This document shows, one piece after another, positions 2,470 through 61,162 of a DNA stretch of 64,000 nt. The position numbers and the translations under genes were made by a program. The notes below the pieces were generated by a model. That model saw only the letters and a program-made list of their open reading frames with translations. It did no database searches and had not been told where the DNA came from. Position 1 is the stretch's first letter, and every line of letters starts with the position of its first letter. Source of the stretch: a virus; IMG/VR virus record IMGVR_UViG_3300044977_000123, positions 1-64,000 of that record; one strand, written 5' to 3'.

Positions 2470-3278
2470 CCACCACCTCCACCGAGCAGCTCAAGACCAA
2501 GCAGACCTCGACCGTCCAGTGGCTCGCCGTGTCCGCGGTCGCCACCGATCCGCAGGTCAACACCAGGTCGCTCGACACGAACTGGGTCGACGCCCGCGTC
2601 CCCTCGTTCGACCTCGCGAAGCTCGGCGTGCCCGAAGTGTCCAAGCGCAAGGACGGCACCTACATCTGGCTCGACGGCCAGCACCGCGCCGAGTTGGTGC
2701 GCCGCGCCGGCTGGCCCAGCCAGAAGATCCAGTGCCGCGTCCACACCGGCCTCACCCTCGCCGAGGAGGCACTGCTGTTCCTCGGCCTCAACGGCGGACG
2801 GCAAGTCACGGCCCTCGCGAAGTTCCTGGCCCGGCGCACCGCCCAGGACCCGGACGCGGTCGGCATCGACGCGATCGTCCGCGCCGCCGGATGGCACATC
2901 GCGAGCGGCACGAACACCAAGTCCATCACCGCGGTCAGCGCCCTGGAGAAGGCCTACAACGCCACCGAGAAGCAGCCCGGCAAAGCCCTCGCGAAAGCCC
3001 TGCGCGTCGTCACCGAGGCCTGGGGCTACGCGCCCGAGGCCGTCAACGGCGACATCCTCCTCGGCGTGTCACTGCTCCTCGCGCAGCACGACCGCATCGA
3101 CATCGCCTCGCTGATCCACAAGCTCGCCGACTACACCGGCGGCCCCCGCGGACTCCACGGCACCGCGAAAGGCCTCAGGCCGTTCCTCGGCGGCACGACC
3201 GCCAACTGCGTCGCCGCGACGCTCGTGAAGGCCTACAACGCCAAGCGCACCACCGGGGCCCTGCCCGACTGGCGGTAG
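2463..3278 (+). CDS. ParB N-terminal-domain-like protein
   Basis: 271 aa. The N-terminal half has the order of a ParB/sulfiredoxin-like fold: a strand with LDTNWVDARVPSFDLAKLG, then WLDGQHRAELVRRAG at about residues 73-87, equivalent to the ParB DGxHR motif that in true ParB proteins contacts CTP. No clear ParB HTH or parS-like cluster is seen nearby, and there is no ParA in the window, so a role in partition is not shown. It may be a phage-type ParB-like regulator or nuclease (DUF6551-like). ATG 2463 overlaps the upstream stop. Confidence 0.75.
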   Translation: MVATTSTEQLKTKQTSTVQWLAVSAVATDPQVNTRSLDTNWVDARVPSFDLAKLGVPEVSKRKDGTYIWLDGQHRAELVRRAGWPSQKIQCRVHTGLTLAEEALLFLGLNGGRQVTALAKFLARRTAQDPDAVGIDAIVRAAGWHIASGTNTKSITAVSALEKAYNATEKQPGKALAKALRVVTEAWGYAPEAVNGDILLGVSLLLAQHDRIDIASLIHKLADYTGGPRGLHGTAKGLRPFLGGTTANCVAATLVKAYNAKRTTGALPDWR

Positions 3279-5087: not shown

Positions 5088-6077
5088 GTGAGCACAGATC
5101 AGCAGGAGGCGCGCGTCGCCACCGGGAGCGTCCCGCACGCCTTCCGGATGGCCGTGGCCTGGCACTGGGCAAAGGAGATGCCGCGGTCTCTGCGCGGCGG
5201 GTTCCTCACCCTGCTGTACGCCCTGGCGGCCCTGGCCGACTCAACCGGCCGGCTGCGGTTCGCCCGCGACGGCAAGCCCATCCGGATCAGCGACATCGCC
5301 GAGGCGTCCGGCTGCGATGAGAAGGACTGCCGCCGGTACCTGCTGGCCGCCGAAGCAGCCGGCGTCGTCCTTGTTGAAGGCGAACGGCGGCGCGGCAGGA
5401 CGACGCTCTACATCATCCTCGTCACGCCTGTGCCCGACTGGGGCGCGTCCGTCGCATCGCTCGACAGCACCCGCCGCAAGCCCCGGACACCTCCCCCGTG
5501 GGTCGCGGAGAAGAGGACGGAGAACGGGGGACTCACCCCGGAACTTTCGGGCGACGAGTTCCGGGGACTCACCCCGGAACTTTGGGACCAGTCCGAGAAA
5601 GAAGTTCCGGGGACTCACCCCCGACCGAGTTCCGGGGACTCACCCCGGAATGGTTCGGGGGACTCACCCCGGAACAACCCAGGAAGTACCCAAGAGCTAC
5701 CCCACGAGACGGCTGAGGTTGTCACCCAACCTCAGGAGGTAGCGGCCCCCGCAGTCGACAAGACCGATCCCGATGGCGAAGACAAGCCAGACGCCATCCC
5801 GGACGGCTTCGTGCGCTGCACGAAATGCCACGAGCGCATGGTCCCCCGCCGAGGCCAAGCCGCCCACGTCCACGCCCACTGCGATCCCCAGTCCCCCAAG
5901 AACCGGAAGGCCAAGACATGGACCAGCACGACGACAACGACGAACTCATCAGCCAACTCGGAGACGGACTCCAGGACGTCCTCGACGGATACGACGAGGA
6001 CTCGGCCCCCGCAGGAGTTCCCACCGGATTCCGGGGCCTCGACGCCATCACCAACGGACTCCGCCCCGGCAGCCTGA
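5088..6077 (+). CDS. replication initiator with embedded iterons (module 1)
   Basis: 329 aa. Residues 1-125 contain a winged-HTH-like domain (IRISDIAEASGCDEKDCRRY) like initiators of lambda-O type and Rep1-like proteins of Streptomyces linear plasmids. A low-complexity linker follows, encoded by the five iterons. A Cys/His cluster (CTKCHERM, HVHAHC) comes near residue 240. The Thr/Ser-rich tail overlaps the helicase gene by 160 bases in another frame. GTG start with a weak upstream site. The role is inferred from order (initiator, iterons, DnaB-like ATPase) and the HTH, not from a full family match. Confidence 0.75.
   Translation: MSTDQQEARVATGSVPHAFRMAVAWHWAKEMPRSLRGGFLTLLYALAALADSTGRLRFARDGKPIRISDIAEASGCDEKDCRRYLLAAEAAGVVLVEGERRRGRTTLYIILVTPVPDWGASVASLDSTRRKPRTPPPWVAEKRTENGGLTPELSGDEFRGLTPELWDQSEKEVPGTHPRPSSGDSPRNGSGDSPRNNPGSTQELPHETAEVVTQPQEVAAPAVDKTDPDGEDKPDAIPDGFVRCTKCHERMVPRRGQAAHVHAHCDPQSPKNRKAKTWTSTTTTTNSSANSETDSRTSSTDTTRTRPPQEFPPDSGASTPSPTDSAPAA
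5522..5675 (+). repeat. five palindromic iterons inside the initiator gene: probable replication origin 1
   Basis: Five copies start at 5522, 5558, 5604, 5629 and 5653. The consensus arms TTCCGGGG and CCCCGGAA flank ACTCA. Copies 2, 4 and 5 are nearly perfect; copies 1 and 3 have small changes. Spacing is 36, 46, 25 and 24 bases, so the repeats are read in all three frames (GLTPEL twice, PGTHP once, SGDSPRN twice). The DNA rather than the peptide is therefore conserved, as expected for initiator binding sites. The arrangement matches phage lambda ori within O and the origins of pSLA2-like Streptomyces linear plasmids. Confidence 0.85.
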
Positions 6078-6883
6078 CCGTCATCGCCTCGCGCCCCGGC
6101 CTCGGCCGCACCACGCTCCTCAGCGACATCTGCCGCCGCAACGCCATCGCCGACAGGCGCCCGGTAGCCGTATGGACACTCGAAGAGACCCGAGGCGACT
6201 TCGCCACCCGACTCCTCGGCGCAGAAGCCCGAGTCCCCCTGCACCACATCCGCAGCGCCCGCATGGACACCGACAGCTGGGAACGGCTCGCCAAGACGCT
6301 GCCCGGCCTGATGGACGCGCCGATCTACATCGGCGACCCGGCCGCCATCACCATGCCCGAACTCGCCGAGCAGGCAACCAGGCTCGTGGAGCAGCACGGC
6401 GTCCAACTGCTGGCAGTCGACGGAATCCAGGACATCCGCCCCGAGAAGCGCAGCGACCTGCGTGAACGGGAAGTCGGCGACGTCGTCCGCGACCTCAAGA
6501 CCCTCGCCCGCCAGTTGAGCGTTCCCGTCCTCGCCACCTCGCACCTCAACCGAGGACCCGAGCAGCGGTCCGACCACCGCCCGGAGATCGACGATCTCCG
6601 CGAGTCGGGGGCGATCACCTACGCGGCCGACACGATCATCCTGCTCCACCGCCCGGACGCCTACGAACGCGATTCGCCCCGCGCCGGCGAGGCCGACCTG
6701 ATCGTCGCCCGGAACAGGCACAACCCAACCTGCGTCAGCACCGTCGCCTACCAAGCGCATTACGGGCGCTTCATCGACATGGCCGAGGACTGGCAGCGCG
6801 AGGAGCCGCAGACCCCGACCTTCGACCTCCTCCAGATGTTCGGCGAGCAGCCTCCAAGCGGCGCCGACAGGCCGAGCCAATGA
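5918..6883 (+). CDS. short DnaB-type replicative ATPase (helicase-like)
   Basis: 321 aa. It aligns with the RecA-like C-terminal domain of DnaB: GFRGLDAITNGLRPGSLTVI, P-loop ASRPGLGRTTLL (about residue 50), VWTLEE, Walker B-like LLAVDGIQDI, ATSHLNRGPE, then DDLRESGAITYAADTIILLH. The DnaB N-terminal primase-interaction domain is absent. The P-loop lysine is Arg (GRT instead of GKT) and the motif H4 Gln is His. GGAAGG precedes ATG 5918. It may be an accessory or loader-type ATPase like Rep2 of linear plasmids, or work only with host DnaB. Confidence 0.8.
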   Translation: MDQHDDNDELISQLGDGLQDVLDGYDEDSAPAGVPTGFRGLDAITNGLRPGSLTVIASRPGLGRTTLLSDICRRNAIADRRPVAVWTLEETRGDFATRLLGAEARVPLHHIRSARMDTDSWERLAKTLPGLMDAPIYIGDPAAITMPELAEQATRLVEQHGVQLLAVDGIQDIRPEKRSDLREREVGDVVRDLKTLARQLSVPVLATSHLNRGPEQRSDHRPEIDDLRESGAITYAADTIILLHRPDAYERDSPRAGEADLIVARNRHNPTCVSTVAYQAHYGRFIDMAEDWQREEPQTPTFDLLQMFGEQPPSGADRPSQ

Positions 6884-34853: not shown

Positions 34854-35651
34854 TCAGCCACGACCAGCCGCGACCATCGCCGCGACCGCGATCCAGCCCT
34901 TGTGCCACGACTGATCGAGCAGGTATCCGGCGCCCGGGTCCCGCTTCAGCCAGCCCCGATGCCCAGTCACCGCAGCCAGCTGGACGACGCCGCGCGGATG
35001 CTCGTCGCGCCAGTGGCCGCCCTGCCGGTCGGCGACGTAGTGCGTGACCGCAGAGACGGCGAGAGCAGCAGCTGCTCGGCGCGGGCTCAGGTTGAGACCG
35101 AGCAGCCGGTCGGCAGCCAGGAGCGCGAGGTCCTCGCGCGGCCCGTAGTCGCAGACGATCCGGTTCGCCGGGTAGATCGCCTCAGCAAGGTAGGTCAGCT
35201 GCGGGTCGAGCCGGCTGAGGTCTGCGGCGTCGAGCCACTGCTGTGCCCAGTCCGCCTGCTCGCTGATGAACGAGCCCTTGGATGCGGCGTGCCAGCGGCC
35301 GTCGTAGTGGAACACGATGATCAGAGAGCCGTCGGCCTTGTCGAACACCTCGAACGGCTCGGCCGGGAGCGGCGGCGCGAAGTCGTGGACGCCGTGCATC
35401 GCCGTCACGAAGATCTTCGGGAACGGGAACGCCACGATCCCGCCCGTGACGTCGTCGGCTATGAGGCCCCGGCAGGCCATGGTGACCGGCGTCCAGATGT
35501 GCCCGTACTGGCAGTCCCGGGTGTACGTGAAGATCGACAGCGGCAGGTCGGGGTGGGACTTGCGGGTGACGTGGCCGGCCTCAATCGCTGCAGCCAAGTC
35601 ATCGGGCGGGAACAGGTCGGCCAAGGTCAAGCCGGTCGTCGCGGTGGTCAC
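34854..35651 (-). CDS. chimeric gene: T4 Rnl1-like RNA ligase N-terminus fused to a membrane-protein C-terminus
   Basis: 265 aa. Residues 1-183 follow T4 RNA ligase 1-type nucleotidyltransferases: motif I KADGS at residue 105 (AMP-accepting Lys), ASKGSFISEQA (about 122-132), YLAEAIYPANRIVCDYG (about 154-170). Motifs IV (EG) and V (KxK), needed for ligation, are absent. From about residue 190 the sequence changes to AAAALAVSAVTHYVADR ... GAGYLLDQSWHKGWIAVAAM, which I recognise as the C-terminal end of a Streptomyces membrane-protein family (DUF3307-like). AAGGAG precedes GTG 35651. Probably a recombination chimera; adenylation could survive but sealing is doubtful. Confidence 0.75.
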   Translation of the reverse strand: MTTATTGLTLADLFPPDDLAAAIEAGHVTRKSHPDLPLSIFTYTRDCQYGHIWTPVTMACRGLIADDVTGGIVAFPFPKIFVTAMHGVHDFAPPLPAEPFEVFDKADGSLIIVFHYDGRWHAASKGSFISEQADWAQQWLDAADLSRLDPQLTYLAEAIYPANRIVCDYGPREDLALLAADRLLGLNLSPRRAAAALAVSAVTHYVADRQGGHWRDEHPRGVVQLAAVTGHRGWLKRDPGAGYLLDQSWHKGWIAVAAMVAAGRG

Positions 35652-35790
35652 GGGGTGCTCCTTGAAGGTTGAGCAGCGCAGGATTGATCGGGACGGGCAG
35701 GGCTCATGCGCTGAGCGGATCAGAATCGGCGGATCGATGATGCAGGCGTATGAGTCATGGTGCACCCCCGGGCGGGGAGATCGGGCGGGG

Positions 35791-37777: not shown

Positions 37778-39169
37778 CTATGCGGCGGCGCCCGGCGTCC
37801 AGGACGTCGCGAGGCTCCGCAGGCGGCCGAACCGACCTTGGAACGACAGCCAGATCTCCTTGCCCTGCCCGCCGTTGCGGTTCTTGCCGACGATCAGCAG
37901 CACCTTCCCCGCGGTCGGGCCGGTGTCGGAGCCGTCCGCCGCCAGTTCGCGGTGCAGCAGCACGATGACCGAGGCGTCCTGCTCGATCTGCGATGAGTCC
38001 TTGAAGTCCGTGACCAGCGGCTGCCGCCCGACGGCTCCGCGGTTGAACTGGGCGAGGGCGACCACGGGCACGTCGAACTCGTGCGCCAGGCGCTTCAGGC
38101 CGCGCGAGATCCCCGCGACCTCCTGCGTCCGGTTCCCGCCCGCGCTGCCGCCAGGGCTCGGCGAGATGAGCTGCAGGTAGTCGACCAGGACCATGCCCGG
38201 CGGTGTGCCCTGGCCGTGCATCCACCGCACCCGCGCCCGGATCTTCTCGACCGTCAGCGACGGCGAGTCGTCGAGGATGAAGTTGTGGGCGCCGCGCATC
38301 ACCGCATCGACGCGGGCGATCTTGTCCCAGTCGTCGTCGGTGACCTGTCGCCGCACCAGGTGGCTGAGTTCGACACCGGCCTCGGCGGCAGTCAGCCGGG
38401 CGAGGAGTTCCCGGCGGCCCATCTCCAGTGAAGCCACCAGAACGGGCAGGCCCTTCTTGAGTGCGATGTGCGCGGCGAGGTTCATGGCGAACAGCGACTT
38501 GCCGCCGCCCGTCCCGGCGCCGACGACCGTGAGCTCCTTGGGCTTGAACTGCACAACCTCGTTGAGGTCAGGCCACGGCGAGTCGAGGGCGCGCGGATCC
38601 TCCTTTGCGGACAGCTCGTCGATGAACGGCTCCCACTCGTCCGCGACGGACATGGTCTGCGTATCGCCGCCGGCTGCGTCGGCGAGGAGTGCTTGCAGTT
38701 CGCCGAGGGCGGCGTCGAGGACCTCTTCGGGCTCGGCTTCCTTGGCGCGGGCCATTGACGCGAGGCGCTCGCCGATCTCGGTGAGGCGGCGCAGCGTGTA
38801 CTTGCTGCGGACGATGTCGGCATACCACTGGGCGTTCGCGGCGGTCGGAACGTTGTGGACGAGGGTGTGCAGGTAGCCGGGGCCGCCGCAGCGGACGAGG
38901 TCGCCTTGCTTCTCCAGCGCCTTGGCGACGGTGATCGGGTCGGGCTGCTCGCCGCCGGGGGCACCGTGGAGGCTGAGGATCGCCTGGTGGATGAGTCCGT
39001 GGGCACCCCGGTAGTAGTGCTCGGGCTTGAGGATCTCGTCGGCGTCGCTGATGGCGCTGTCGGAGATGAGCATCGCGCCGAGGACGGCCTGCTCGGCGGC
39101 GAGATCGGTGGGGTACGTCGGCTCGGCCGGCTCGGTCTCGTCGTCGTACGGGTCTTCGTGCTGGGTCAT
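37778..39169 (-). CDS. dnaB: replicative DNA helicase DnaB (full length)
   Basis: 463 aa. N-terminal DnaB domain (AAEQAVLGAMLISDSAISDA, residues about 20-120), linker, then the RecA-like core: VVGAGTGGGKSLFAMNLAAH (Walker A with intact Lys), LVASLEMGRRELLARL, MVLVDYLQLISP (Walker B), VVALAQFNRGA (H4 with Gln), IEQDASVIVLLHR. Acts as a hexamer unwinding the replication fork. ATGA overlap with the initiator gene shows they are one operon. The core differs clearly from the short ATPase of module 1. Confidence 0.93.
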   Translation of the reverse strand: MTQHEDPYDDETEPAEPTYPTDLAAEQAVLGAMLISDSAISDADEILKPEHYYRGAHGLIHQAILSLHGAPGGEQPDPITVAKALEKQGDLVRCGGPGYLHTLVHNVPTAANAQWYADIVRSKYTLRRLTEIGERLASMARAKEAEPEEVLDAALGELQALLADAAGGDTQTMSVADEWEPFIDELSAKEDPRALDSPWPDLNEVVQFKPKELTVVGAGTGGGKSLFAMNLAAHIALKKGLPVLVASLEMGRRELLARLTAAEAGVELSHLVRRQVTDDDWDKIARVDAVMRGAHNFILDDSPSLTVEKIRARVRWMHGQGTPPGMVLVDYLQLISPSPGGSAGGNRTQEVAGISRGLKRLAHEFDVPVVALAQFNRGAVGRQPLVTDFKDSSQIEQDASVIVLLHRELAADGSDTGPTAGKVLLIVGKNRNGGQGKEIWLSFQGRFGRLRSLATSWTPGAAA

Positions 39170-40005
39170 GCGGCGTCCTGATAGTCGGGGTGGCAGTGGC
39201 AGGGCTGCGCGAGGGAGAAGCCGTTGGCGTCGGTGACGTCGCGGGTGCGGGTGTCGGGGTCGCAGTCGCGGTCGCCGCACCAGTCGGGCAGGCTGGGAGA
39301 GGCCCGTTGCCGGTCGTCGGCCTGCTTGGCGCGCCAGGTCTGAGCGAGCTCGGGCATGTCGTCGGCTGCGGCACGCCAGAACGCGGGGGTGCGGACCTTG
39401 CACTCGGCGGTGACCCAGGCGATGAACGCCGGTTCGTCGTCCAGGGGGACGACGCCTCGCACGGCTTTCTGGGCGGCAGTGAGTCGGGTGGTGGTTTTGC
39501 TCGCGTCAGCGATGGTCTCTCTCTCGGCGACTGGAGCGGCGGACTGGCCGTCGGCCGGGAGAGGAGAGGTACTTGAGGAGCAAAGAGGAGTAGGGGTCAT
39601 CTGTTGGATGAAGAATCCGGCCGATTCCTCATCTGATGGATGAAGGGTCGTGTTCGATGCTTCATCTGTTGGGTGAAGAATCTCGTCGGCCACTTCGGGA
39701 TCTTCATCTGATGGATGAAGAATCTTGGGGTCCATCACGGGGATGCGGTACCGCGCGGACCTGCCCTTGACGCCTGCCTCGACGACCTCCAGGACACCCT
39801 TGCGGATCAGCGCGCTGCGCAGGTTCGACCAAGCCGGGACGCTCAGGCGCACGCGCCGCAAGATCTCCGGGTCGTTGATCTTCGAGAAGGTGAGACGCGT
39901 CTTCTCGTTCGCGTCCCGCGCCAGGACGATCAGTCCCTTCCACTCCCCCGCCGTGAGGGTGTCCGGGGCATGGTCCATCACCTCTTCGACCAGCTTGATG
40001 CCCAT
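39166..40005 (-). CDS. replication initiator with embedded iterons (module 2)
   Basis: 279 aa. The N-terminal 100 residues form a winged-HTH-like domain (TAGEWKGLIVLARDANEKTR, WSNLRSALIRKGVLEVVEAG) as in lambda-O-type initiators. Residues about 100-145 are encoded by four iterons. The C-terminal part has a CGDRDCDPDTR metal-like motif. No ribosome site of its own: translation is coupled to the 16-codon leader (TGATG). Same gene order as module 1 (initiator, iterons, DnaB) but no clear sequence similarity in the iterons. Confidence 0.75.
   Translation of the reverse strand: MGIKLVEEVMDHAPDTLTAGEWKGLIVLARDANEKTRLTFSKINDPEILRRVRLSVPAWSNLRSALIRKGVLEVVEAGVKGRSARYRIPVMDPKILHPSDEDPEVADEILHPTDEASNTTLHPSDEESAGFFIQQMTPTPLCSSSTSPLPADGQSAAPVAERETIADASKTTTRLTAAQKAVRGVVPLDDEPAFIAWVTAECKVRTPAFWRAAADDMPELAQTWRAKQADDRQRASPSLPDWCGDRDCDPDTRTRDVTDANGFSLAQPCHCHPDYQDAA
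39597..39720 (-). repeat. four palindromic iterons inside the initiator gene: probable replication origin 2
   Basis: Plus-strand core TCATCTGATGGATGAAG with dyad arms TTCATC/GATGAA. Copies at 39597-39613, 39629-39645, 39662-39678 and 39704-39720; spacing 32, 33 and 42 bases. Three copies encode LHPSDE or LHPTDE, but the fourth is read in another frame (FIQQMT), so the DNA repeat itself is conserved. The arrangement matches ori-in-initiator designs. Confidence 0.8.
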
Positions 40006-41016: not shown

Positions 41017-42396
41017 TCAGCCGGCGATGGCCAGCTCGGTGCGTGTGCGGTGAAGGAGGTCCTGGACGGGGATCTCGGCCTTCCAGCGCCTCAGGGCGGC
41101 GGTGTAGTCCCGCACATAGTCCAGGGCGCGCGTGGACTGCACCCGCGACAGGATGTCGACGGCCCGATGCCCCATGTCCAGCCCCTCGTCGAGACGTCCG
41201 GCCTGCAGGTGCGCGGAGCCTACGATAGCGAACCGCATCCCCACCGACCGCGTGAAAACATCGGCCGACATGGTGGCCGCACGGTCGTTCCAAGCAAGCG
41301 CCTCGGCAGGCCGGTGCAGGTCGCGGAACACCTCGGTCGTGTCGGCGGACATTCGGGCATGGGTCATGTAGCTGATCCACGCGGGCTCACCGTCGGGATG
41401 CTCCTCGGCCCGATCCAGCAGCTGCTCGCACTGCGCGACCGCTTTCGCCGCCGCGCGGGCGTCGCCGGCCCGGCCATGCGCACGGGCCTCGATCAGCCGC
41501 GTGAACGCCAGTACACGCGGTGCCGCCGTCCCCTGCGCCCGCTCGTAGGCGCCCTGGGCCATGTCAACAGCCTCCGCCGCATAGCCGCGCAACAGAGTCT
41601 GCAGCGCCATCGTCGTCAGGACATAGCCGCCCAGCTCCACATTCCCGCCAGCCCGCGCCAGAGCCAGGGCCTGGATGAAATGCCGCTGGGCGACATCGTG
41701 ATGGCCGACGTCCACAGCTGACCAGGCCGCCATCCGGGACAGCTCCGCGGTCACCGCGAACAGTTCCCCGCCGATGTCGTCGCTGTACGAGCCGTGGAGC
41801 AGCGGCGCGGCTCGGCGCTGCAGGCAGTCGGTGATCGCGCTGGCCTTCCAGTTCCCGCCGCCGTACTTGGAGTCCCAGGCGCGGGCGTCGTCCGCTGCCT
41901 GCCACAGCTCGTCGAGGTCTGCGCGGCCCACGCGGGCCCCGTCGCGGCGGGCAGTGGCTGCGGCGGCCGGCGTGACGAGCCAGCGGGTGACGGGGGTGGT
42001 GAAGGCGGCGATGGCGAAGGTCTGGCCGAGGAGTTGACGGCGGTTCACGGCGCTCCAGAAGGTGCAGGCGACGCGGACGGCGTCGGCGGGGTCCCTGGAG
42101 AAACTCAACCCCATGTCGGTGCTCGCAGCGGGGAGGCTGACCATGCCGATTTCGGTGACGGTGACCGGCCGGGAGAGTCGTTCACTGAGCGCGACGGCGA
42201 TCAGCGACGGTACCGGGTGGCGCGGCACCATGCCGTAATCCGCCCAGTTGGTGACACTCGTGTACGTGTAGCGCAGGGTCAGGCCCTGCCGCCGGCCGAG
42301 GTGGTTGACCTGCTGGGCCAGCCATGTGCGGCTGGTCTTGCTGGCCTCCAGGAGGCGCTGTAGATCCTGGTTGGGTCCTCGTTGTGCTCGTGCCAT
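41017..42396 (-). CDS. transcriptional regulator with HTH and TPR-like repeats (459 aa)
   Basis: Residues 5-60 form an XRE-like HTH (LQRLLEASKTSRTWLAQQVN ... TYTSVTNWADYG). A helical C-terminal region of about 350 residues has TPR-like repeats. This architecture is common in Streptomyces regulators (NsdA-like). GGAGG precedes ATG 42396. Divergent from the sugar cassette, so it may control it. Confidence 0.75.
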   Translation of the reverse strand: MARAQRGPNQDLQRLLEASKTSRTWLAQQVNHLGRRQGLTLRYTYTSVTNWADYGMVPRHPVPSLIAVALSERLSRPVTVTEIGMVSLPAASTDMGLSFSRDPADAVRVACTFWSAVNRRQLLGQTFAIAAFTTPVTRWLVTPAAAATARRDGARVGRADLDELWQAADDARAWDSKYGGGNWKASAITDCLQRRAAPLLHGSYSDDIGGELFAVTAELSRMAAWSAVDVGHHDVAQRHFIQALALARAGGNVELGGYVLTTMALQTLLRGYAAEAVDMAQGAYERAQGTAAPRVLAFTRLIEARAHGRAGDARAAAKAVAQCEQLLDRAEEHPDGEPAWISYMTHARMSADTTEVFRDLHRPAEALAWNDRAATMSADVFTRSVGMRFAIVGSAHLQAGRLDEGLDMGHRAVDILSRVQSTRALDYVRDYTAALRRWKAEIPVQDLLHRTRTELAIAG

Positions 42397-42594
42397 TGCC
42401 GACCTCCGGGGCCGCACTTTCGGGCTACCGAGCGTAGGCCAATCCGTGGGCGCGCGTGCGGGGTCTGCGAGGAGTTTGCCCCCGTGTTTGCGTGTCCCCA
42501 GGTTACGGGTCGGCGGTTTCCTGATGGTCCGACCGGCTCCCGTACCGTGCTCCAGCCGGCCGCCTCACATCACTTCCAGAGGAGATCACGGCTG

Positions 42595-43599
42595 ATGGAA
42601 AACGTACTGGTCACGGGTGGTGCCGGGTTCATCGGCTCGCACTTCGTCAAGCAGCTGCTGCGAGCCGACGACGTCGCCACCGTGACGGTCCTCGACGCCC
42701 TCACCTACGCCGGACACATCCACAACCTCGGCGAGGCCTTCCTGTCGCCGAAGCTCGCCTTCGTCGAGGGCAACATCCTTGACCGGCCGCTCGTCGAGCA
42801 GCTCGTCGCCCGGCACGACAGCGTGGTGCACTTCGCCGCCGAGTCCCACGTCGACCGCAGCTTCTACGCGGCAGGGACGTTCCTCGCCACCAACGTGCTC
42901 GGCACCCAGGTCCTCCTGGACGCGGCCCAGCGCCACGGCGTCGAGCGCTTCGTCCACGTCTCCACCGACGAGGTCTACGGCCCGCTCCTCACCGGGTCGG
43001 CCGCCGAGGACGCCCCGCTGCGCCCCTCCGTGCCGTACGCCGCATCCAAGGCCGCCTCCGACCTGATCGCACTGTCGTACTGGCAGACCTACGGCGTGCC
43101 GGTGTGCGTCACCCGCTCGTCCAACAACTACGGGCCGAACCAGCACCCCGAGAAAATCATCCCGCTGTTCGCGACACGGCTCCTCAAAGGCGAGCCCGTC
43201 ACCCTCCACGGCCAGGGCCAGCACATCAGGAACTGGGTGCACGTCACCGACAACTGCGCCGGCATCGAACTCGTCCTGCGCGACGGCATCCCCGGCGAGG
43301 CCTACAACCTGGGCGGCGGCACCGATCTGACGAGCCGCGAACTCACCGCGCTGATCCTCGACGCCTGCGGAGCCGACTGGGACCAGGTGACCTACATCCC
43401 GGACCGGCCCGCGAACGACGTGCGCTACTCCATGGACTGGTGCAAAGCCGCCGCTCTCGGCTACAAGCCAACCCAGGACCTGCAGGAGGGGCTGGCGCAG
43501 ACCGTGGAGTGGTACCGCGCGCACCCGGACCGTTGGGCGCCCCAACTGCGCAAGCCCGGCGCACAGCTCCAGCTGTCCGCTCCGACCCCAGGAAGGTGA
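42595..43599 (+). CDS. rmlB: dTDP-glucose 4,6-dehydratase (RmlB-like)
   Basis: 334 aa, normal for RmlB. NAD-binding VTGGAGFIGSHFV at the N-terminus, FAAESHVDRS, STDEVYGPL (the Asp-Glu pair that performs dehydration), catalytic Tyr/Lys in YAASKAASD, and RSSNNYGPNQHPEKIIPLF. Converts NDP-glucose (usually dTDP) to the 4-keto-6-deoxy sugar. AGAGGAG before ATG 42595. The thymidylyltransferase RmlA is not in the window, so the host must supply dTDP-glucose. Confidence 0.92.
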   Translation: MENVLVTGGAGFIGSHFVKQLLRADDVATVTVLDALTYAGHIHNLGEAFLSPKLAFVEGNILDRPLVEQLVARHDSVVHFAAESHVDRSFYAAGTFLATNVLGTQVLLDAAQRHGVERFVHVSTDEVYGPLLTGSAAEDAPLRPSVPYAASKAASDLIALSYWQTYGVPVCVTRSSNNYGPNQHPEKIIPLFATRLLKGEPVTLHGQGQHIRNWVHVTDNCAGIELVLRDGIPGEAYNLGGGTDLTSRELTALILDACGADWDQVTYIPDRPANDVRYSMDWCKAAALGYKPTQDLQEGLAQTVEWYRAHPDRWAPQLRKPGAQLQLSAPTPGR

Positions 43600-45386: not shown

Positions 45387-46553
45387 TCACCGGATTGCGG
45401 CGTCCAGCAGGACATCGACGAGCCGGTCCGCCGCATCGGGCCGCCCCTGCGACCGAGCCCGCTCCGCCATGACGGTGCGGCGCTCCGGCTCGGCCAGCAG
45501 CGGCGCCAGTGCAGCCCGCAGGACGTCCCCGTTCACCTCCCCGAGCAGCGCGATCGCAGCGCCTGCCCGGTGGAGGTGCTCCGCGTTGTGGGTCTGCTCG
45601 TTGCCCGCAGAGCTGGCGAGGGGAATCAGGACGGCGGCCTTGCCGAGCGCGGTCAGTTCGGCGATCGTGCCCGCACCGCTGCGCGACACCACCACATCGG
45701 CCAGCGCCAGGACATCAGGGAGCTCCGGGCCGACATAGCCCGTGAGCAGGTACCGCGACGCCAGGCCCGGCGCCAGGCTGCTTGTGCGGTCGCGCAGGCC
45801 GGCCAGGTTGCCCGGCCCGCACTGGTGGACGACATTCGCCTGTGCGAGGAGCCACGGCAGGATGCTGCTCACGAGCGTGTTGATCTGCTGCGACCCCTGG
45901 GCGCCACCAGTGACGTAGACCGTAGGCAGCGACAGGTTGAACCCGTACAGGCCCAATGCCTCGACCGCCTTGCCGGGCCGGCCGGTGAAGACCTCCGGCC
46001 GCACCGGGTTCCCCGTGACGACTGCGCTGGCGCGTACGGACTCCGTGAGCAGCGCCAGTGTCGACTCGGAGGAGACCGCGACTCTGGTGGCGACACGCGT
46101 CAGTGCCCGGTTCGCCAGACCCAGGCGGACAGTCTGCTCGTGAATGACGAGCGGCACCCGGCACATCCTTGCGGCCAGCCCGATCGGGACGGCAACGTAC
46201 CCGCCGGTGGCGAGTATGACGTCCGGCTTGAACGCGGCGACGATCGAGCGGGCCTGGGCGACACCCAGCGGCACCCGGCCCATGTCCTTGACGTTCGCTG
46301 GCGAGGCGAGCTTCAGTGGGTTGCTGGACCGTCGGATCTTGCCCGTGGCGACCGGGGCGAAGCGGATGCCCTCTGCTGCGGCGACGCGGGACTCCAGGCT
46401 GTTGGCGACGCCCACCCATAGGACGTCCACGGGCCTGCCTTCGGCGGCGAGTCGGCCTTGGAGGGCTCGTACGGCTGTGAGTGCCGGGTAGGTGTGGCCG
46501 CCGGTGCCGCCGCCGGTGACGATCAAGCGGAAGGTCCGCGAGTCAAGGTTCAC
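45387..46553 (-). CDS. MurG-like glycosyltransferase (GT28)
   Basis: 388 aa, slightly longer than host MurG. GGGTGGHTYPALTAVRAL (lipid/acceptor loop), GGAQGSQQINTLV (nucleotide domain), VSRSGAGTIAELTALGKAAV and NEQTHNAEHLHRAGAA (donor-binding motifs). MurG adds GlcNAc to lipid I; family members also glycosylate other lipid-linked acceptors. Tail to tail with the formyltransferase (7 bases apart), so it is not in the same operon but very likely uses or protects against its product. GTG start. Confidence 0.85.
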   Translation of the reverse strand: MNLDSRTFRLIVTGGGTGGHTYPALTAVRALQGRLAAEGRPVDVLWVGVANSLESRVAAAEGIRFAPVATGKIRRSSNPLKLASPANVKDMGRVPLGVAQARSIVAAFKPDVILATGGYVAVPIGLAARMCRVPLVIHEQTVRLGLANRALTRVATRVAVSSESTLALLTESVRASAVVTGNPVRPEVFTGRPGKAVEALGLYGFNLSLPTVYVTGGAQGSQQINTLVSSILPWLLAQANVVHQCGPGNLAGLRDRTSSLAPGLASRYLLTGYVGPELPDVLALADVVVSRSGAGTIAELTALGKAAVLIPLASSAGNEQTHNAEHLHRAGAAIALLGEVNGDVLRAALAPLLAEPERRTVMAERARSQGRPDAADRLVDVLLDAAIR

Positions 46554-50136: not shown

Positions 50137-51132
50137 ATGTCCACCTTGACCGAGCAGACGCTCACCCCGGCCAGCGACGAGCTGCGGCACTTCCTGCCGT
50201 GGCTCAACGACGCCGCGCCCACGGGTGTCGCCGAGGCCCCGGCCAAGCCCGCTCTCGCGGTCGTCGCATCGCAGACACCGGAGGAACTCGCGGAACAGCA
50301 GCGCGTCGCGCTGGAGGCCAAGGAGGCCGCAGAGAAGCAGGCCGAGAAGAAGCGCCTGCGCCGCAACACCCGGATGGGCATGGGCGCCATCATCCTGATC
50401 TCCGCCGTCATCACCTACGTCGGCAGCACCAACGCCCACGACCTCCTGATCCGTCACCACACCTCGACCGTCGCCGCGTGGCTGCTCTACCCGGCCCTCG
50501 AAGCCGGCCTCGTCGTGGAGATCCAGATTGGTGGTCTCCTCGCCGAGTACAACCGCAGCGTCCGCTTCTGGGGCGCTGCGTTGCGCGTCGTCACCGCCGC
50601 CTCCGCGCTCACTCTCAGTGCTGCCGGGCCGGCCGAGCTCGGCGACTGGTTCGGGGCGATGTACCACGCCCTCGGGCCCATCGGACAGTTCTTCTTCGCC
50701 GAGTTCCTCGCCCACGCCCGGCCCGAGTTCCGGGGTGCGGCCGATGACATCGAGGAGCGGACGAGTGCCCATCCGCGACCCGTTCAGTCCGCGGCGGACC
50801 GTCACGTGAAGGCGACCCGTAAGCGGACGGCAAAGCGTCCGTCCGCGCCCGGACGAGTCGCGGACGGACGGACGAAGCGCACGGACGAGACACCCGCGAC
50901 GCCGGCCGAGCCAATCGCCGTCCCGGACGACGACGATCTCCTCGTCCGCGCCCATGCCGCGGCGGACGAGCTGGAGCGGACGGACCAACGGCTGAACCGG
51001 GACAACCTCGTCCGGGCCATTCGTGCTGGTGGCGGCACGATCCAGAACAAGGACGCCGGACGGCTCCTCGCCCAGCTACGCAACGAGCGCGGCGGACCGG
51101 ACCTCCGGTCGGTCCGCGAGAAGGGAGCCTGA
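50137..51132 (+). CDS. DUF2637-like membrane protein with C-terminal DNA-binding-like tail (331 aa)
   Basis: Charged N-terminal coil (KEAAEKQAEKKRLRRNTR), then about four membrane helices (residues 85-200, including GAIILISAVITYVGSTNAHD), a basic linker, and a C-terminal LNRDNLVRAIRAGGGTIQNK that resembles an HTH. Lies immediately before the TraB-like gene; such proteins accompany conjugation genes in actinobacterial plasmids. The last 350 bases are unusually rich in CGGACG/CGTCCG. Confidence 0.7.
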   Translation: MSTLTEQTLTPASDELRHFLPWLNDAAPTGVAEAPAKPALAVVASQTPEELAEQQRVALEAKEAAEKQAEKKRLRRNTRMGMGAIILISAVITYVGSTNAHDLLIRHHTSTVAAWLLYPALEAGLVVEIQIGGLLAEYNRSVRFWGAALRVVTAASALTLSAAGPAELGDWFGAMYHALGPIGQFFFAEFLAHARPEFRGAADDIEERTSAHPRPVQSAADRHVKATRKRTAKRPSAPGRVADGRTKRTDETPATPAEPIAVPDDDDLLVRAHAAADELERTDQRLNRDNLVRAIRAGGGTIQNKDAGRLLAQLRNERGGPDLRSVREKGA

Positions 51133-51133
51133 G

Positions 51134-53242
51134 ATGGCCGTCGACCGTATCGTCCGTCCGTCCGCAGGCGCGGACGAAGACCTGGAGGTCCCCGGCTTCC
51201 TCCAGTCCGGCCGTGCCTCGCAGGCGATCGTCGGGGAGCTCGTCCGTCCGGACCGTCCGGCGTTCGACGCGGACGACGACGACATCGCTCCGGGCCTCAT
51301 CGAGTACTACCGTCCGCGTCCGCCGGTCCTGTCGCGGGCCGCGTCGGCGACGCTGGTGGCGGCCAGGGCGACGGGTCGCGGTGTCGGCTGGTCGGCCCGG
51401 CACGGCTGGCTCGTGGCCCGCTGGTTCGGTCACGGTGCGCGAGCGACCGCCGTACTGGGTCACCGGTACGTTCGGGCGCACGACCACATCGAGGCCCTCG
51501 GCGGTATGAACGGCCCTGCGTGGCGGAAGATCCTCGACACGCGGGCACGGCGCTGGAAGTTCCTCAGCTACGGCGCCGGCGGACTGGCGGCGGCGGACCT
51601 CGCCTCGTGGTGGGCCCTTGTGCGCTACGAGCACTTCGACGTCTTCCCCGGGCTCGCCGTCGCGCCCGCCGTCGAGGCCCTCGCCGCCGCCGGCCTGCTG
51701 ACCGTCTACGGCCGCTACCGGCTCGCGGCAAGGCTCGGGCCGACGCAGGTCGTGGACCCTGCGGACCTCGCGGAGGCTGACCCCGACGACCCGTTCCCGA
51801 TCGGCCACGCAACCACCTTCGACCAGGCCGCCGAGTGCCTATCGCGCGCGTTCCACGCCGAAGGCATCGAGACCCGGGACATCAGCGTCACCACCCGCCC
51901 GGCCTGGGGCTGGGAGCTCAAAGTCCTCCTCAAGGGCTGCACCCCGGCAAAGGTCGTTGCTGCGGCCGACAACCTCGAAGCACACATGGATCTGCCCGCG
52001 GGCGGGTTCATGCCGGAGCCGCACACCGCGAACCGGTCGAGGCTGACGGTGCGCCTGGTGGAGCGGGACCCGTTCGCGGACATGCCCCGGCCTGCCGTGC
52101 ACGCCCCGCGGTCCCTGTCGGTGCATGACCTGACGATCCTGGGTCGGGCGATGGACGGCGGCGACCTCGCGCTGTCGTTCGACGGATTCTGTGCGCTGGT
52201 GATCGGCGCGATGGGCGCAGGGAAGACGCTCGGGGCGCTGCGGACGTTCGCCGAGGCGCTGACCGCGTGCCGGGACGCCGTGTGCTGGGACTTGGACCCG
52301 CTGAAGGGCGGCCTCGGCGAGTTCGGCGACCTTATGGCGCTGCGGGCCCGCGGCCCCGAGGAGTGCGACGCAGCCCTGCTCAAGGCCCTGGCGTACGTGG
52401 AGGCCCGCGCGAAGGTCATCCGGGAGATCGGCATGGGAGACCGCTGGGTCGCGACCGAGGAGCACCCGGACCTGTACGTGTTCGTCGACGAGTACCTGCA
52501 GCTGTCCCCGAAGGGCAAGCAGACCGCAATTCAGGTTCTGCGCACGGGACGCCAGTACGGCATCTACCTGGTCATCGCGGGCCAGGAGGCCACCGAGGAC
52601 GCCTTGGGTGACGCCATCGCCTCGCTCATCGCCTACCGCATCCTGATGCCCTGCCGCTTCGAGGACATCAAGATTTGCTTCGGCGTCGGCAAGGGCGCGC
52701 TGGGCTGGCGGCCGGACCGCATGGAGCCCGCGGTTGGCCAGGTCGTCAACGACGCCGGCCAGAGCTTCATCATGGGCGGCCTGTTCACCCGGGCGATCCG
52801 CTACCGGTACTTCGCCTACTCCCCCGAGCAGATCGCCTCCGCGATTCCCGGGCGCATCGAGGCCGGGATGCCGCAGATGGATGCGGACACGCTGCGCGCT
52901 GCCGGGGAGGACGTGCCGACTGGCGGCCGGGTGCCCACGCTCGCCGACCGCCTCGATGCAACGGGCACTGTCGACGGGCAGCTGCTGGCGTGCGTGCTGG
53001 ACCTGTACAGCAAGCACCGCGCCGAGTTCGTGCCGACGCGCCTGATCCTCGCGCAGCTCGACGGCGCACCCGGCTGGGACCCGGGCGCGGCCCCGGGCCG
53101 GAGCCTGGGCCTGCTGATCTCCCGTCACGCGCTGGACGCGACCTCGTCGAAGGGCCAGTGGGGCGAGGAGCGGGATGTCCGCGGCTGGACCCTGAAATGG
53201 ATCCGGGCGGCGGCCGAGGATCTGCTCCGCGACCCGCCGTAG
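51134..53242 (+). CDS. FtsK/SpoIIIE-family DNA translocase, TraB-like conjugation protein
   Basis: 702 aa. Membrane/oligomerisation part in residues 70-230; ATPase core from about 290: VIGAMGAGKTLGALRTFAEA (Walker A), CWDLDPLKGGLGEFGDL, VFVDEYLQLSPKGKQ (Walker B), LRTGRQYGIYLVIAGQEATE. The C-terminal about 90 residues (LYSKHRAEFVPTRLILAQLD ... SLGLLISRHAL) resemble a winged-helix gamma domain that reads DNA. In Streptomyces, TraB moves double-stranded plasmid DNA between mycelia as a hexameric pore. GGGAG before ATG 51134. The phased repeats at its 3' end fit its recognition site. Confidence 0.88.
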   Translation: MAVDRIVRPSAGADEDLEVPGFLQSGRASQAIVGELVRPDRPAFDADDDDIAPGLIEYYRPRPPVLSRAASATLVAARATGRGVGWSARHGWLVARWFGHGARATAVLGHRYVRAHDHIEALGGMNGPAWRKILDTRARRWKFLSYGAGGLAAADLASWWALVRYEHFDVFPGLAVAPAVEALAAAGLLTVYGRYRLAARLGPTQVVDPADLAEADPDDPFPIGHATTFDQAAECLSRAFHAEGIETRDISVTTRPAWGWELKVLLKGCTPAKVVAAADNLEAHMDLPAGGFMPEPHTANRSRLTVRLVERDPFADMPRPAVHAPRSLSVHDLTILGRAMDGGDLALSFDGFCALVIGAMGAGKTLGALRTFAEALTACRDAVCWDLDPLKGGLGEFGDLMALRARGPEECDAALLKALAYVEARAKVIREIGMGDRWVATEEHPDLYVFVDEYLQLSPKGKQTAIQVLRTGRQYGIYLVIAGQEATEDALGDAIASLIAYRILMPCRFEDIKICFGVGKGALGWRPDRMEPAVGQVVNDAGQSFIMGGLFTRAIRYRYFAYSPEQIASAIPGRIEAGMPQMDADTLRAAGEDVPTGGRVPTLADRLDATGTVDGQLLACVLDLYSKHRAEFVPTRLILAQLDGAPGWDPGAAPGRSLGLLISRHALDATSSKGQWGEERDVRGWTLKWIRAAAEDLLRDPP

Positions 53243-53372
53243 ACCCGTCTGCGACCCGCCATCGACCCGCCGACGACCCGTCGGCGTCACCGCAGGTCAG
53301 ACGGCCCAAGACGGGTCGTCGGCGGGTCCGAGACGGATCTATGGCGGGTCCAGGACGGATCACCGGCGGGTT
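53231..53372 (+). repeat. 11-bp-phased inverted arrays of 8-mers: candidate TraB-recognition (clt-like) locus
   Basis: Five forward 8-mers GACCCG(C/T)C start at 53231, 53242, 53253, 53264 and 53275. After 27 bases, six inverted copies (GACGGGTC, GGCGGGTC, GACGGATC, GGCGGGTC, GACGGATC, GGCGGGTT) start at 53310, 53321, 53332, 53343, 53354 and 53365. Every step is exactly 11 bases. The first copy overlaps the translocase stop. Established knowledge: TraB of pSVH1 binds repeats of GACCCGGA in the clt locus near traB; these repeats match 6 of 8 positions. Confidence 0.85.
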
Positions 53373-53405: not shown

Positions 53406-54182
53406 ATGGCCGCCAAGCGCACCACCAAGAAGACTGCCGCCCGCAAGCCGGCCCGGCGCGCCCCGATTGGCCGCCGCCCCGCGAACCGGCGTGATCCGCT
53501 GCACCGCTTCGCCGCCTGGTGCGGTCGGCTGCTCGCCCACCATGCTGCCCGGCACACTGCGGCGGTCCGCTCCCGGAAGGATGCGGCGATCCTGCGGGCG
53601 ACGCATGCGGGCTGCGCGGTCTGCGGAGGCACGGGCACGATCTTCACGAAGGACAAGAAGACGGGGGCATTCAGCGGCTCCAAGCCCTGCACCGCCAAGC
53701 CCGCCACCGTGAAGGTCTCCCGGCTCAAGGTTCATACGGCTGCGCGGGTCGGCGTCGACAAGCACTCCGGGCTGATCGGCTGGACGTGCCCGTGCGGCGC
53801 GAAGGAGAAGCCCCGCCATCGCGATGCGAAGGCCGCGACGGCAGCGCTCCGTGTGCACGAGAAGCGCAAGCACAACGGCACGACCGTCGGCGGCGCCTGG
53901 TACGCGCAGTTGCCTGAGGGGACAGCGCCGGCCAAGCCGATCACCGCAGCCCCGCCCGTGACCAAGACGGCTCCTGCGGGCGGCATGACCGACGCCGAGT
54001 GGATCAAGCAGAACTCGCGGCTCAGCCCGGCCGCCGCCGACCGCAAAGGTGTCTGCTGGTGCTGCGGCGGCAACGGCGCCCTCTACTCCGCGCACGGCGG
54101 CAAGCAGACCACGACCGTCTGCGGGATGTGCCACGGCACCGGGAAGGCCGCGACTGCCAGCGCCTCGAGGGGCGGTAGCTGA
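53406..54182 (+). CDS. basic zinc-knuckle protein of the transfer region (258 aa)
   Basis: Very basic N-terminal 60 residues (KRTTKKTAARKPARRAPIGR), CAVCGGTGT and CWCCGGNGAL...CGMCHGTGK (CxxCxGxG repeats as in DnaJ), and a C2H2-like CPCGAKEKPRHRD. Probably binds nucleic acid or assists transfer. GGAGAGGAG before ATG; right after the phased repeats. Confidence 0.65.
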   Translation: MAAKRTTKKTAARKPARRAPIGRRPANRRDPLHRFAAWCGRLLAHHAARHTAAVRSRKDAAILRATHAGCAVCGGTGTIFTKDKKTGAFSGSKPCTAKPATVKVSRLKVHTAARVGVDKHSGLIGWTCPCGAKEKPRHRDAKAATAALRVHEKRKHNGTTVGGAWYAQLPEGTAPAKPITAAPPVTKTAPAGGMTDAEWIKQNSRLSPAAADRKGVCWCCGGNGALYSAHGGKQTTTVCGMCHGTGKAATASASRGGS

Positions 54183-59053: not shown

Positions 59054-59187
59054 ATCCAGGTGCGAAGGCGGGTCCTACTTCCACTGTTAATGGGGATGTC
59101 GCGGGTTCGAGTCCCGTCACCGACTTCGGTCGGTGTAGCTCAGTTGGCAGAGCGCCTTGTCGGATCCACCGACCTTGACCTCTGGAT
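59054..59187 (+). ncRNA. Y RNA 1 (YrlA-like, with permuted tRNA-like module)
   Basis: Lower stem ATCCAG/CTGGAT (59054-59059 with 59182-59187). Conserved internal loop GTGCGA (59060-59065) opposite ACCTTGACCT (59172-59181), the Ro60-binding element. Upper stem 59067-59075 with 59162-59170. The tRNA-like module follows in permuted order: T-arm 59101-59117 (5-bp stem, loop TTCGAGT), acceptor 3' strand CACCGAC, UUCG tetraloop, acceptor 5' strand GTCGGTG (7 bp), TA, D-arm 59138-59153 (GCTC/GAGC, 8-base loop). A wobble-rich pseudo-anticodon stem (59091-59095 with 59155-59159) joins the two parts. Bacterial Y RNAs mimic tRNA this way. Confidence 0.88.
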
Positions 59188-59204
59188 CAACAACTTCACA
59201 TGCA

Positions 59205-59274
59205 CCTCCCGGTGCGCTGGCCAGCGGCTACTTCTTGGTGAATCACGCCGCAGGCCGACATTGATCTCGGGAGG
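59205..59274 (+). ncRNA. Y RNA 2 (minimal, no tRNA-like module)
   Basis: Lower stem CCTCCCG/CGGGAGG (59205-59211 with 59268-59274). GTGCGC (59212-59217) faces ACATTGATCT (59258-59267), the same Ro60-binding element as its neighbours. Upper stems TGGCC/GGCCG and GCGGC/GCCGC lead to an 18-base loop (59229-59246). About 70 nt in all. The effector module is absent, so it would bind Ro60 without a tRNA-like arm. Confidence 0.75.
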
Positions 59275-59284
59275 ATATGCATCG

Positions 59285-59425
59285 GGGGTGCCCGGTGCGA
59301 CAGCAACGGGTTCATCAATGGGTCGCGGGTTCGAGTCCCGCCCGGTCGGCGCAAGCTGGCCGGTAGCTCAGGCGGTAGAGCAGTTGACTACAACTCCCGT
59401 CGCTGACCTTGATCTCGGGCACCCC
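59285..59425 (+). ncRNA. Y RNA 3 (YrlA-like, with permuted tRNA-like module)
   Basis: Perfect 10-bp lower stem (59285-59294 with 59416-59425), GTGCGA (59295-59300) facing ACCTTGATCT (59406-59415), upper stem CAGCAACGGG/CCCGTCGCTG with one mismatch. The permuted tRNA-like module has a pseudo-anticodon stem TCAAT (59315-59319) with GTTGA (59383-59387), variable loop GGGTC, T-arm 59325-59341 (loop TTCGAGT), a 9-bp acceptor stem capped by GNRA loop GCAA (59351-59354), TA, and D-arm 59366-59381 (GCTC/GAGC). All expected tRNA landmarks are present except 3' CCA and a free end. Confidence 0.9.
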
Positions 59426-59437
59426 ACTGCATGTCTT

Positions 59438-59463
59438 CCCCTCCACGTGAGGGGTTTTGCTTT
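59438..59463 (+). promoter_or_regulatory. hairpin that masks the Ro60 ribosome site and resembles a terminator
   Basis: Stem CCCCTC (59438-59443) with GAGGGG (59449-59454), loop CACGT, then TTTTGCTTT. GAGGGG is also the ribosome site, 7 bases before the TTG start at 59462. The same element could end the Y RNA transcript or, when unfolded, allow Ro60 translation. Confidence 0.75.
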
Positions 59464-61162
59464 GTCCCGCTTCAACACCCGGACCGCCCGTCCGTCCGGC
59501 ATATCGCCCGTGACCACGACCGGGCAGACCGTCACCACCCACGAGGGCGGCACCGGCTTCCTCCGCGACGAGAAGAGCGAGCTGTTCCTCCTCGCGGTGG
59601 CGAACTTCGTCGGCCAGGACACCTTCTACGAGCAGGGCGGCCAGCGCGACGACCGCTACACCCAGCTCGTCCGGCAGCTCGCCGTCGCCGACCCTGAGTG
59701 GACCGCTGGACTGCTCGGCTGGCTCCGCGCCGACGGCAACATGCGCACCGCATCGCTCGTCGGCGCGGCCGAGTACGTCAAGGCCCGTCTCGACGCCGCA
59801 GGCAGCCGCGAGCGCCGCATCCACGAGCAGGGGGCCGACAAGGCCGCGACCGTATGGTCCGGCGACAGCCTCGACTACTCCGCCGCCGCGAACCGTCGCG
59901 TCATCGCCTCCGTCCTGCAGCGCCCGGACGAGCCCGGCGAGCTGCTGGCCTACTGGACGTCCCGCTACGGCCGGAACCTCCCGAAGCCCGTGAAGCGCGG
60001 TGTCGCCGACGCTGTCCAGCGGCTGTACAACGAGAGGAGCCTCCTCAAGTACGACACCGACTCGAAGGGCTACCGGTTCGGCGACGTCCTCGAGCTCGTC
60101 CACGCCTCGCCCGCAAAGCCCTACCAGCACGACCTGTTCAAGCACGCCATCGACCGGCGCCATAAGCGCGACAACCCGATCCCCGACGGGCTGCGGATCG
60201 TTCGCAGCCGCGAGGAGCTCTTCAGCCTGCCCGTCAAGGCCCGGCGCGCCGTACTGGAGTCGGCGCAGGGCATGGAGCGGCTCGCGGACGCTGGTGTCAA
60301 CTGGGAGGCACTGGCGGGCTGGCTCCAGGGCCCGATGGACCAGGAGGCGTGGAAGGCAGTCATCCCGTCCATGGGCTACATGGCGCTCCTGCGGAACCTG
60401 AGGAACTTCGACCAGGCCGGCGTGTCCGACAGCGTCGCGCAGCAGGTCGCAGCGAAGCTCGCCGACCCGGAGCAGGTCGCCCGCTCCCGGCAACTGCCGA
60501 TGCGGTTCTACTCGGCGTACCGGGCTGCGCCGTCGCTGCGCTGGTCATGGGCGCTGGAGCAGGCGCTCGGGCATTCGCTCGCGAACATCAACCGGCTGCC
60601 CGGCCGGACCCTGGTCCTGGTCGACACGTCCGGGTCGATGCACGCCGGGTTCAGCAAGGACGGCACGGTGATGCGCTGGGACGCGGCGGTCGTGTTCGGG
60701 ATCGCCCTCGGGTACCGGTGCGCGCAGGCCGATGTGGTGTCGTTCTCCGACGCCGGCTACGGCTACGGCTGGAATTCGCGCGGCAACAGCGACGCGAGCC
60801 GACCGTTCGCGCTCACGCCCGGAGGCTCGGTCCTCGCGGAGGTCAAGCGCTGGAACGACGACGGCTACTTCATCGGCGGCGGCACCGACACTGCTGGCGC
60901 GGTCCAGCGGCACTTCGCCGGGCACGACCGGGTCGTGATCCTCACCGATGAGCAGGCCAACAGCAACGGCTCCGTCGACCGGGCGGTCCCGGCGAACGTG
61001 CCGATGTACACCTGGAACCTCGCGGGTTACCGGGCTGGCCACGCGCCGTCCGGGAGTCGCAACCGGCACACGTTCGGCGGGCTCACCGATGCGGCCTTCC
61101 GCATGGTGCCGCTGCTGGAGGCTGGGGCGAACGCCACCTGGCCCTGGCTCCAGTCCGCCTGA
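59462..61162 (+). CDS. rsr: Ro60/TROVE-domain RNA-binding protein (Rsr-like)
   Basis: 566 aa from TTG 59462, giving the N-terminus SRFNTRTARPSGISPVTTTG usual in actinobacterial Ro60. A TROVE HEAT-repeat ring follows (about 25-360; ELFLLAVANFVGQDTFYEQ, DRRHKRDNPIPDGLRIV), then a von Willebrand A domain with MIDAS motif DTSGSMH near residue 387. Ro60 binds Y RNAs on its outer face and misfolded RNA in its ring; in bacteria it works with nucleases such as PNPase. The longer ORF from 59045 is rejected because it runs through the Y RNAs. No rtcB is nearby. Confidence 0.95.
   Translation: MSRFNTRTARPSGISPVTTTGQTVTTHEGGTGFLRDEKSELFLLAVANFVGQDTFYEQGGQRDDRYTQLVRQLAVADPEWTAGLLGWLRADGNMRTASLVGAAEYVKARLDAAGSRERRIHEQGADKAATVWSGDSLDYSAAANRRVIASVLQRPDEPGELLAYWTSRYGRNLPKPVKRGVADAVQRLYNERSLLKYDTDSKGYRFGDVLELVHASPAKPYQHDLFKHAIDRRHKRDNPIPDGLRIVRSREELFSLPVKARRAVLESAQGMERLADAGVNWEALAGWLQGPMDQEAWKAVIPSMGYMALLRNLRNFDQAGVSDSVAQQVAAKLADPEQVARSRQLPMRFYSAYRAAPSLRWSWALEQALGHSLANINRLPGRTLVLVDTSGSMHAGFSKDGTVMRWDAAVVFGIALGYRCAQADVVSFSDAGYGYGWNSRGNSDASRPFALTPGGSVLAEVKRWNDDGYFIGGGTDTAGAVQRHFAGHDRVVILTDEQANSNGSVDRAVPANVPMYTWNLAGYRAGHAPSGSRNRHTFGGLTDAAFRMVPLLEAGANATWPWLQSA

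Follow-up and report, generated by a model that had tools for sequence, protein, structure and literature searches.

A two-armed, helically phased octamer array behind the traB gene of a tailed phage is a candidate clt locus

Introduction

Conjugation driven by TraB is already known, as are clt loci and one plasmid-phage that carries tra genes (pZL12). The clt of the Streptomyces theta plasmid pWTY27 comprises 16 bp of the traA 3' end together with the 159 bp behind it, is needed for transfer, and is bound and footprinted by TraA, an FtsK-like Tra protein with two membrane segments (PMC3583192). For pSVH1, the TraB recognition sequence is given as GACCCGGA (Vogelmann 2011, as quoted in PMC5133688), an 8-bp site that, by that account, is read by the C-terminal winged helix of TraB. 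The plasmid-phages pZL12/pSLE1 (Zhong 2010), as summarized in PMC4487206 and PMC3583192, combine phage genes and a tra function in one Streptomyces element. The KOPS motifs of FtsK and the SRS motifs of SpoIIIE are likewise 8 bp long and recognised by an FtsK-type motor through its winged-helix domains, but they are dispersed and strand-biased along the chromosome, whereas the octamers described here form one cluster.

These octamers lie in a stretch of 64,000 nucleotides (the window), positions 1 to 64,000 of the 123,222-bp IMG/VR virus record IMGVR_UViG_3300044977_000123, at the 3' end of a gene for a TraB/FtsK-type DNA translocase (51134-53242, plus strand). We propose that the array is probably the clt of a TraB conjugation module in a temperate actinobacterial phage, and from sequence comparison we infer binding by TraB, hexamer loading and DNA transfer.

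Results

A two-armed array at the 3' end of traB

The sequence places the left arm of the array at 53231-53282 on the plus strand, where five direct octamers, every one an exact GACCCGYC, start at 53231, 53242, 53253, 53264 and 53275. The right arm (53310-53372, minus strand) holds six inverted GAYCCGYC-type octamers starting at 53310, 53321, 53332, 53343, 53354 and 53365, which read in order on the minus strand GACCCGTC, GACCCGCC, GATCCGTC, GACCCGCC, GATCCGTC and AACCCGCC. The start-to-start distance is 11 throughout either arm, and a centre of 27 bases (53283-53309) separates the two. This confirms the layout given in a preliminary description of the locus, with the refinement that only three of the six inverted copies are exact and the other three carry one change. 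An additional degenerate inverted copy, GACGGCCC (GGGCCGTC on the minus strand), occupies 53300-53307, 10 bp from the next inverted copy. The first left-arm repeat lies inside traB, the second begins on the last base of its stop codon (53240-53242), and the remaining repeats fall within the 163-bp gap separating traB from the next ORF.

The motif search across the replicon that the preliminary description had called for found the array to be unique. The two-copy pattern GACCCGYCNNNGACCCGYC, with at most one mismatch, has 8 matches in the window, all in the array (0.11 expected from shuffles), and a related, slightly looser two-copy pattern has no match outside the array in the whole 123,222-bp record. 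Taken singly, octamers are about as frequent in the window as expected (20 seen against 19.1), so the signal is the array itself, whose autocorrelation reaches 33/44 at lag 11 (z 6.9) and 34/44 at lag 22 (z 7.6). A guide motif of the KOPS/SRS type was considered and rejected, since the record has 13 copies on one strand and 12 on the other, 25 in all, of which 8 lie in the array, and single octamers show no enrichment in the window.

Folded as RNA, the strand reaches -63.5 kcal/mol (z -9.4), as might be expected if the arms formed a long stem in the traB transcript, acting as an RNA element or terminator hairpin. We consider this very unlikely: there is no T-run, terminator match or Rfam family, and the octamers pair but the mirrored spacers differ in three of four cases, as expected for protein sites. 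Mirrored octamers agree at 6-8 of 8 positions. Over the eleven copies, information content is 1.0-2.0 bits at octamer positions, compared with about 0.2 bits at the three spacer positions. Conserved octamers with spacers that are not conserved are more in keeping with protein sites than with an RNA stem. The repeats, being iteron-like and in a phage, could also mark a replication or packaging site (iterons or pac), to which we attach the least credence of all. GC content is high in this region (0.72), which lacks an AT-rich segment; the terminase gene is about 20 kb off (L025:8914-10512); and where the same design occurs on plasmids or in other phage types, it goes with traB rather than with rep or terminase.

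Set beside known clt loci, the array shares with Streptomyces TraB systems an FtsK/SpoIIIE-type Tra motor encoded next to a locus-unique cluster of short (7-9 bp) repeats. Like the pWTY27 clt (PMC3583192), which spans about 175 bp, it starts in the last tra codons and contains short repeats and inverted repeats, a likeness taken from the published description rather than from the pWTY27 sequence; unlike here, the pWTY27 repeats are TGACACC and CCCGCCC and the experimentally tested locus is on a plasmid. With the pSVH1 sites as quoted, the octamers share their length and first six bases (GACCCG), but their last two bases are YC instead of GA, and the facing arms in 11-bp phase and the GCAGGTCA core between them set the present locus apart from that recognition sequence.

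The translocase and its neighbours

The traB product matches phrog_12531 (FtsK/SpoIIIE-like, E 6e-90) and its alignment shows a Walker A motif, GAMGAGKT, and a Walker B motif, VDE. The ORF opens at GTG 51023, and the ATG at 51134, right after the upstream stop codon, is the likelier start. The AlphaFold2 model of the protein has matches to 6t8b (FtsK motor, E 8e-14) and 6o1w (TcpA, the coupling protein of pCW3 conjugation, E 5e-13), and by this predicted structure TraB carries an FtsK/TcpA-like motor fold. Tra motors of Streptomyces TraB/clt systems have N-terminal membrane segments; the model here has long helices around residues 135-207, at low confidence. The C-terminal domain (52850-53239, plus strand) is predicted in a low-confidence model to be a winged helix-turn-helix and presumably binds the repeats; modelled in isolation (low confidence, pLDDT 47.7) it has the order helix-strand-helix-helix-strand-strand-helix. 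This domain is conserved among the homologues with matching arrays.

Upstream of traB lies a gene for a putative membrane protein (50137-51132, plus strand; phrog_25954, E 1.3e-5). It occupies the position of the DUF2637 gene in plasmid relatives, and its product has no Pfam hit and only non-significant blastp matches to DUF2637 proteins. The downstream gene (53406-54182, plus strand) encodes a protein with a basic N-terminus and a CxxCxGxG zinc motif. Beside traB, neither an Spd gene nor a relaxase gene was recognised. About 6 kb behind traB, at 59165-61162, a TROVE/Ro-like RNA-binding protein is encoded; in BE-cluster phages, ftsK and a Ro-like gene also lie within a few kb of each other.

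The array fills the only gap ahead of the downstream gene, and repeated, phased octamers could be bound by a cooperative regulator, so that we weighed an operator array at which a repressor, such as a KorSA-like regulator of the GntR type, would control this gene or traB. It is improbable in our view. The array lies behind traB regardless of which gene comes downstream, its many copies in inverted arms exceed the needs of an operator, and no promoter was found in a scan for sigma-70-like sequences, which do not span all actinobacterial promoters.

The main rival to a clt is a role in segregation, in which TraB or an unseen adaptor would use the array as a centromere-like or septum-clearing site to bring an extrachromosomal prophage into spores or compartments, rather than to pass DNA from cell to cell. 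The parC site of R1 has two sets of 11-bp repeats, and a single locus with phased repeats in two arms somewhat resembles it. Septum clearing is also done by FtsK-type motors, and a weak ParB-like protein is encoded at 2328-3275. That gene is 50 kb from the array, however, which is itself flanked by the genes for TraB and the zinc-motif protein, and no ParA/ParR-type, ParM/ParR or ParA/ParB genes were recognised among the array neighbours scanned. The relatives, moreover, are plasmids with GntR/DUF2637/TraB transfer operons, and we regard segregation as unlikely.

Phage context and the closest relatives

The phage nature of the element was one of two points absent from the preliminary description. 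The record encodes a terminase, portal, head protease, tape measure, tail fibre and Ku, and also a large serine integrase, an antirepressor, an Erf-like protein and DnaB-like helicases; with terminase, portal, head protease and tape measure present, it is a tailed phage (Caudoviricetes). An actinomycete ICE (AICE), an element of about 10-40 kb with integrase, RCR/RepAM/Prim-Pol and TraB but no virion genes, was rejected for a record of 123 kb with virion genes and DnaB. Relatives of the portal occur in many viral contigs and, distantly, in Arthrobacter and other phages.

The record has further features of its own. It carries two DnaB-like helicase genes (window 5825-6883 and 37778-39403) and two different RNA ligases (window 34857-35765 and L027:15408-16508). 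An NAD-dependent sugar epimerase/dehydratase and a family-28 glycosyltransferase (window 42382-43599 and 45390-46553) possibly change a surface glycan. The sole tRNA in the window, a tRNA-SeC (tca) called by ARAGORN at 39629-39719, may be a false call.

The four nearest TraB homologues (L121-L124) are 41-44% identical, with alignments that reach near the C-terminus. Their loci have arrays of CCCGTC-type repeats at an 11-bp phase; the pattern is most distinct in L121 and L124, and L122 and L123 are partly degenerate. A GCAGGT lies 52 bases behind the start of the stop codon (62 in L122). The downstream gene stays behind traB and the array in the closest relatives, with tblastn identities of 59% (L122/L140), 52% (L121), 55% (L124) and 47% (L123). 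The chromosomal prophage around L121 encodes terminase, portal, protease, capsid and tape measure, and L122 adjoins terminase and portal genes. Of these four homologues, two at least are in Streptomyces prophages with matching arrays. A portal search in 12 TraB-bearing Streptomyces genomes did not recover the portal family of the window phage itself; the phages there use other portals.

Arrays of a different repeat group, CGTGACG, also occur in phage genomes, one of which (G001) encodes terminase, portal, capsid and tape measure. Contig G005, which has the portal family of the window phage, carries genes of the DUF2637-like and TraB-like kinds; its GGACAGGG repeats come without the GCAGGTCA core, and their autocorrelation is not significant. 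A phage with a related portal (57%), on a 127-kb viral contig (G006, L099), encodes a divergent FtsK-like protein with an AbiEi_4/MarR-type C-terminal winged helix and has no visible array. NZ_CP108705, which looks pZL12/pSLE1-like by gene content, encodes a candidate Tra about 25% similar, with no array behind it and a different portal family.

Helical phasing and a conserved core across the TraB clade

The clade of this TraB has members on Streptomyces plasmids, in BE-cluster phages and in Streptomyces genomes (24 of 296 sampled). A single-sequence TraB query of viral contigs gave no relative, while queries with small alignments did; an exact three-octamer pattern scan of viral contigs had no match. 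In many plasmid relatives, GntR, DUF2637-type and small genes precede traB, and most plasmid-type and prophage loci have groups of direct and inverted repeats behind the traB stop. The repeat sequence is lineage-specific: CTCTAC (pFP1), TGATCGGC, GATCCGTC (L021), CGTGACG, CCGGAAC, CTGCTC/TGAGCA, CCTGCC and others. In 25 representative loci, the commonest 6-mer averages 6.5 copies (shuffles, 2.8). Measured from each copy to the next, its 104 spacings (31 at exactly 11 bp, 13 at 12, then 21, 22 and 31-33) cluster on multiples of 10.3-10.5 bp with a circular mean length R of 0.75, a figure that covers array-bearing loci rather than every relative, the 25 having been picked with repeat-bearing flanks in mind. 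The test statistic R*sqrt(n) reaches 7.67, whereas the highest value among 200 shuffles is 2.33, and removing the repeat type of the window leaves R at 0.72. Within array-bearing loci, then, the spacing data indicate that helical phasing is a property of the clade.

Comparison with these relatives supports the earlier proposal of a TraB docking locus (clt) at the traB 3' end with pSVH1-like octamers on one helical face. The 11-bp spacing and symmetry, once thought distinctive, turn out to recur across the clade with unrelated repeat sequences. On the Streptomyces olivoreticuli ZZ-21 plasmid (L021), for instance, five direct GATCCGTC-type and four inverted copies in 11-bp phase are followed by TGACCTGC, although the L021 TraB is only 32% identical and, unlike here, the element is a plasmid. 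The pFP1-type plasmids (L005, L006, L015, L016) likewise have the order DUF2637, TraB, inverted CTCTAC/GTAGAG array and next gene, and carry a GCAGGTCA/TGACCTGC pair; they differ in their 12-bp spacing, their repeat, a TraB with an N-terminal FtsK_gamma domain, and in being plasmids. The placement of that domain in pFP1 TraB (L006:4804-7524; residues 58-111, E 2.7e-17), besides the protein's own C-terminal domain, is unusual.

Several TraB relatives (L018, L019, L043, L045, L046, L048, L051, L055) have no clear array. The FtsK homologues of BE-cluster phages have neither array nor core behind the gene, so a phage FtsK need not be conjugative. In BE-cluster phages and Lentzea relatives (L003, L004, L043, L045, L049), which have no array, a small membrane-protein-like ORF lies directly behind the ftsK stop.

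The second point absent from the preliminary description is a clade-conserved sequence in what it called the centre. In an unbiased count of 8-mers in the 180 bp behind the traB stop, GCAGGTCA is the commonest: it occurs in 11 of 21 dereplicated loci, and no shuffle exceeds 6. The window has one copy between the arms (53292-53299, plus strand), inside the 27-bp centre. In L041, L042, L047, L006, L023, L056 and L135, GCAGGTCA and TGACCTGC form an inverted pair that brackets the array, 96 or 106 bp apart, two distances that differ by about one helical turn. Record-wide the 8-mer is not rare (16 copies, 4.5 expected), so its weight comes from its position across loci. A copy in the portal-sharing contig G007 falls in tail-type genes and was set aside as a chance occurrence. 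In the literature searched, no paper was found that ties GCAGGTCA to Streptomyces transfer. Another string, CCCGAAAG, is shared by the unrelated lineages L023, L041, L006 and L056 just past their arrays, about 160-190 bp behind traB.

Discussion

If the array is a clt, the product of 51134-53242 would be a membrane-anchored FtsK-like motor that binds the octamers through C-terminal winged-helix domains. Spaced at 11 bp, all sites of an arm would lie on nearly one helical face, so that several TraB subunits could dock side by side and a hexamer be loaded. The two facing arms around the conserved GCAGGTCA may nucleate a motor on each side, or else one symmetric complex. TraB would then drive the double-stranded DNA of the phage through septa or across the hyphal wall, and so into an adjacent compartment or cell. 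The suggestion that the array sets the direction of transfer fares less well: because the arms are symmetric, repeat orientation alone is unlikely to give a direction signal.

More tentatively, and with some doubt, we suggest that some temperate actinobacterial phages may be 'conjugative phages'. In addition to producing virions, these would move their double-stranded genome directly between hyphal compartments or cells by means of a TraB motor, which would be loaded at a helically phased clt that has two arms and a conserved GCAGGTCA centre. Such direct movement would let a prophage spread through the mycelium without lysis. Two things seem new within the literature searched: a TraB-plus-clt module recurs in temperate phages that have virion genes, and arrays across the clade follow a rule of two arms in helical phase, often with GCAGGTCA.

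The comparison yields a rule for locating clt loci, namely phased octamers behind traB, often with GCAGGTCA, and the pairs of TraB C-terminal domains and repeats are a ready set for solving the recognition code. If the proposal is true, phages and conjugative plasmids of filamentous actinobacteria would use one double-stranded DNA transfer machine, and viral spread through the mycelium need not go via virions.
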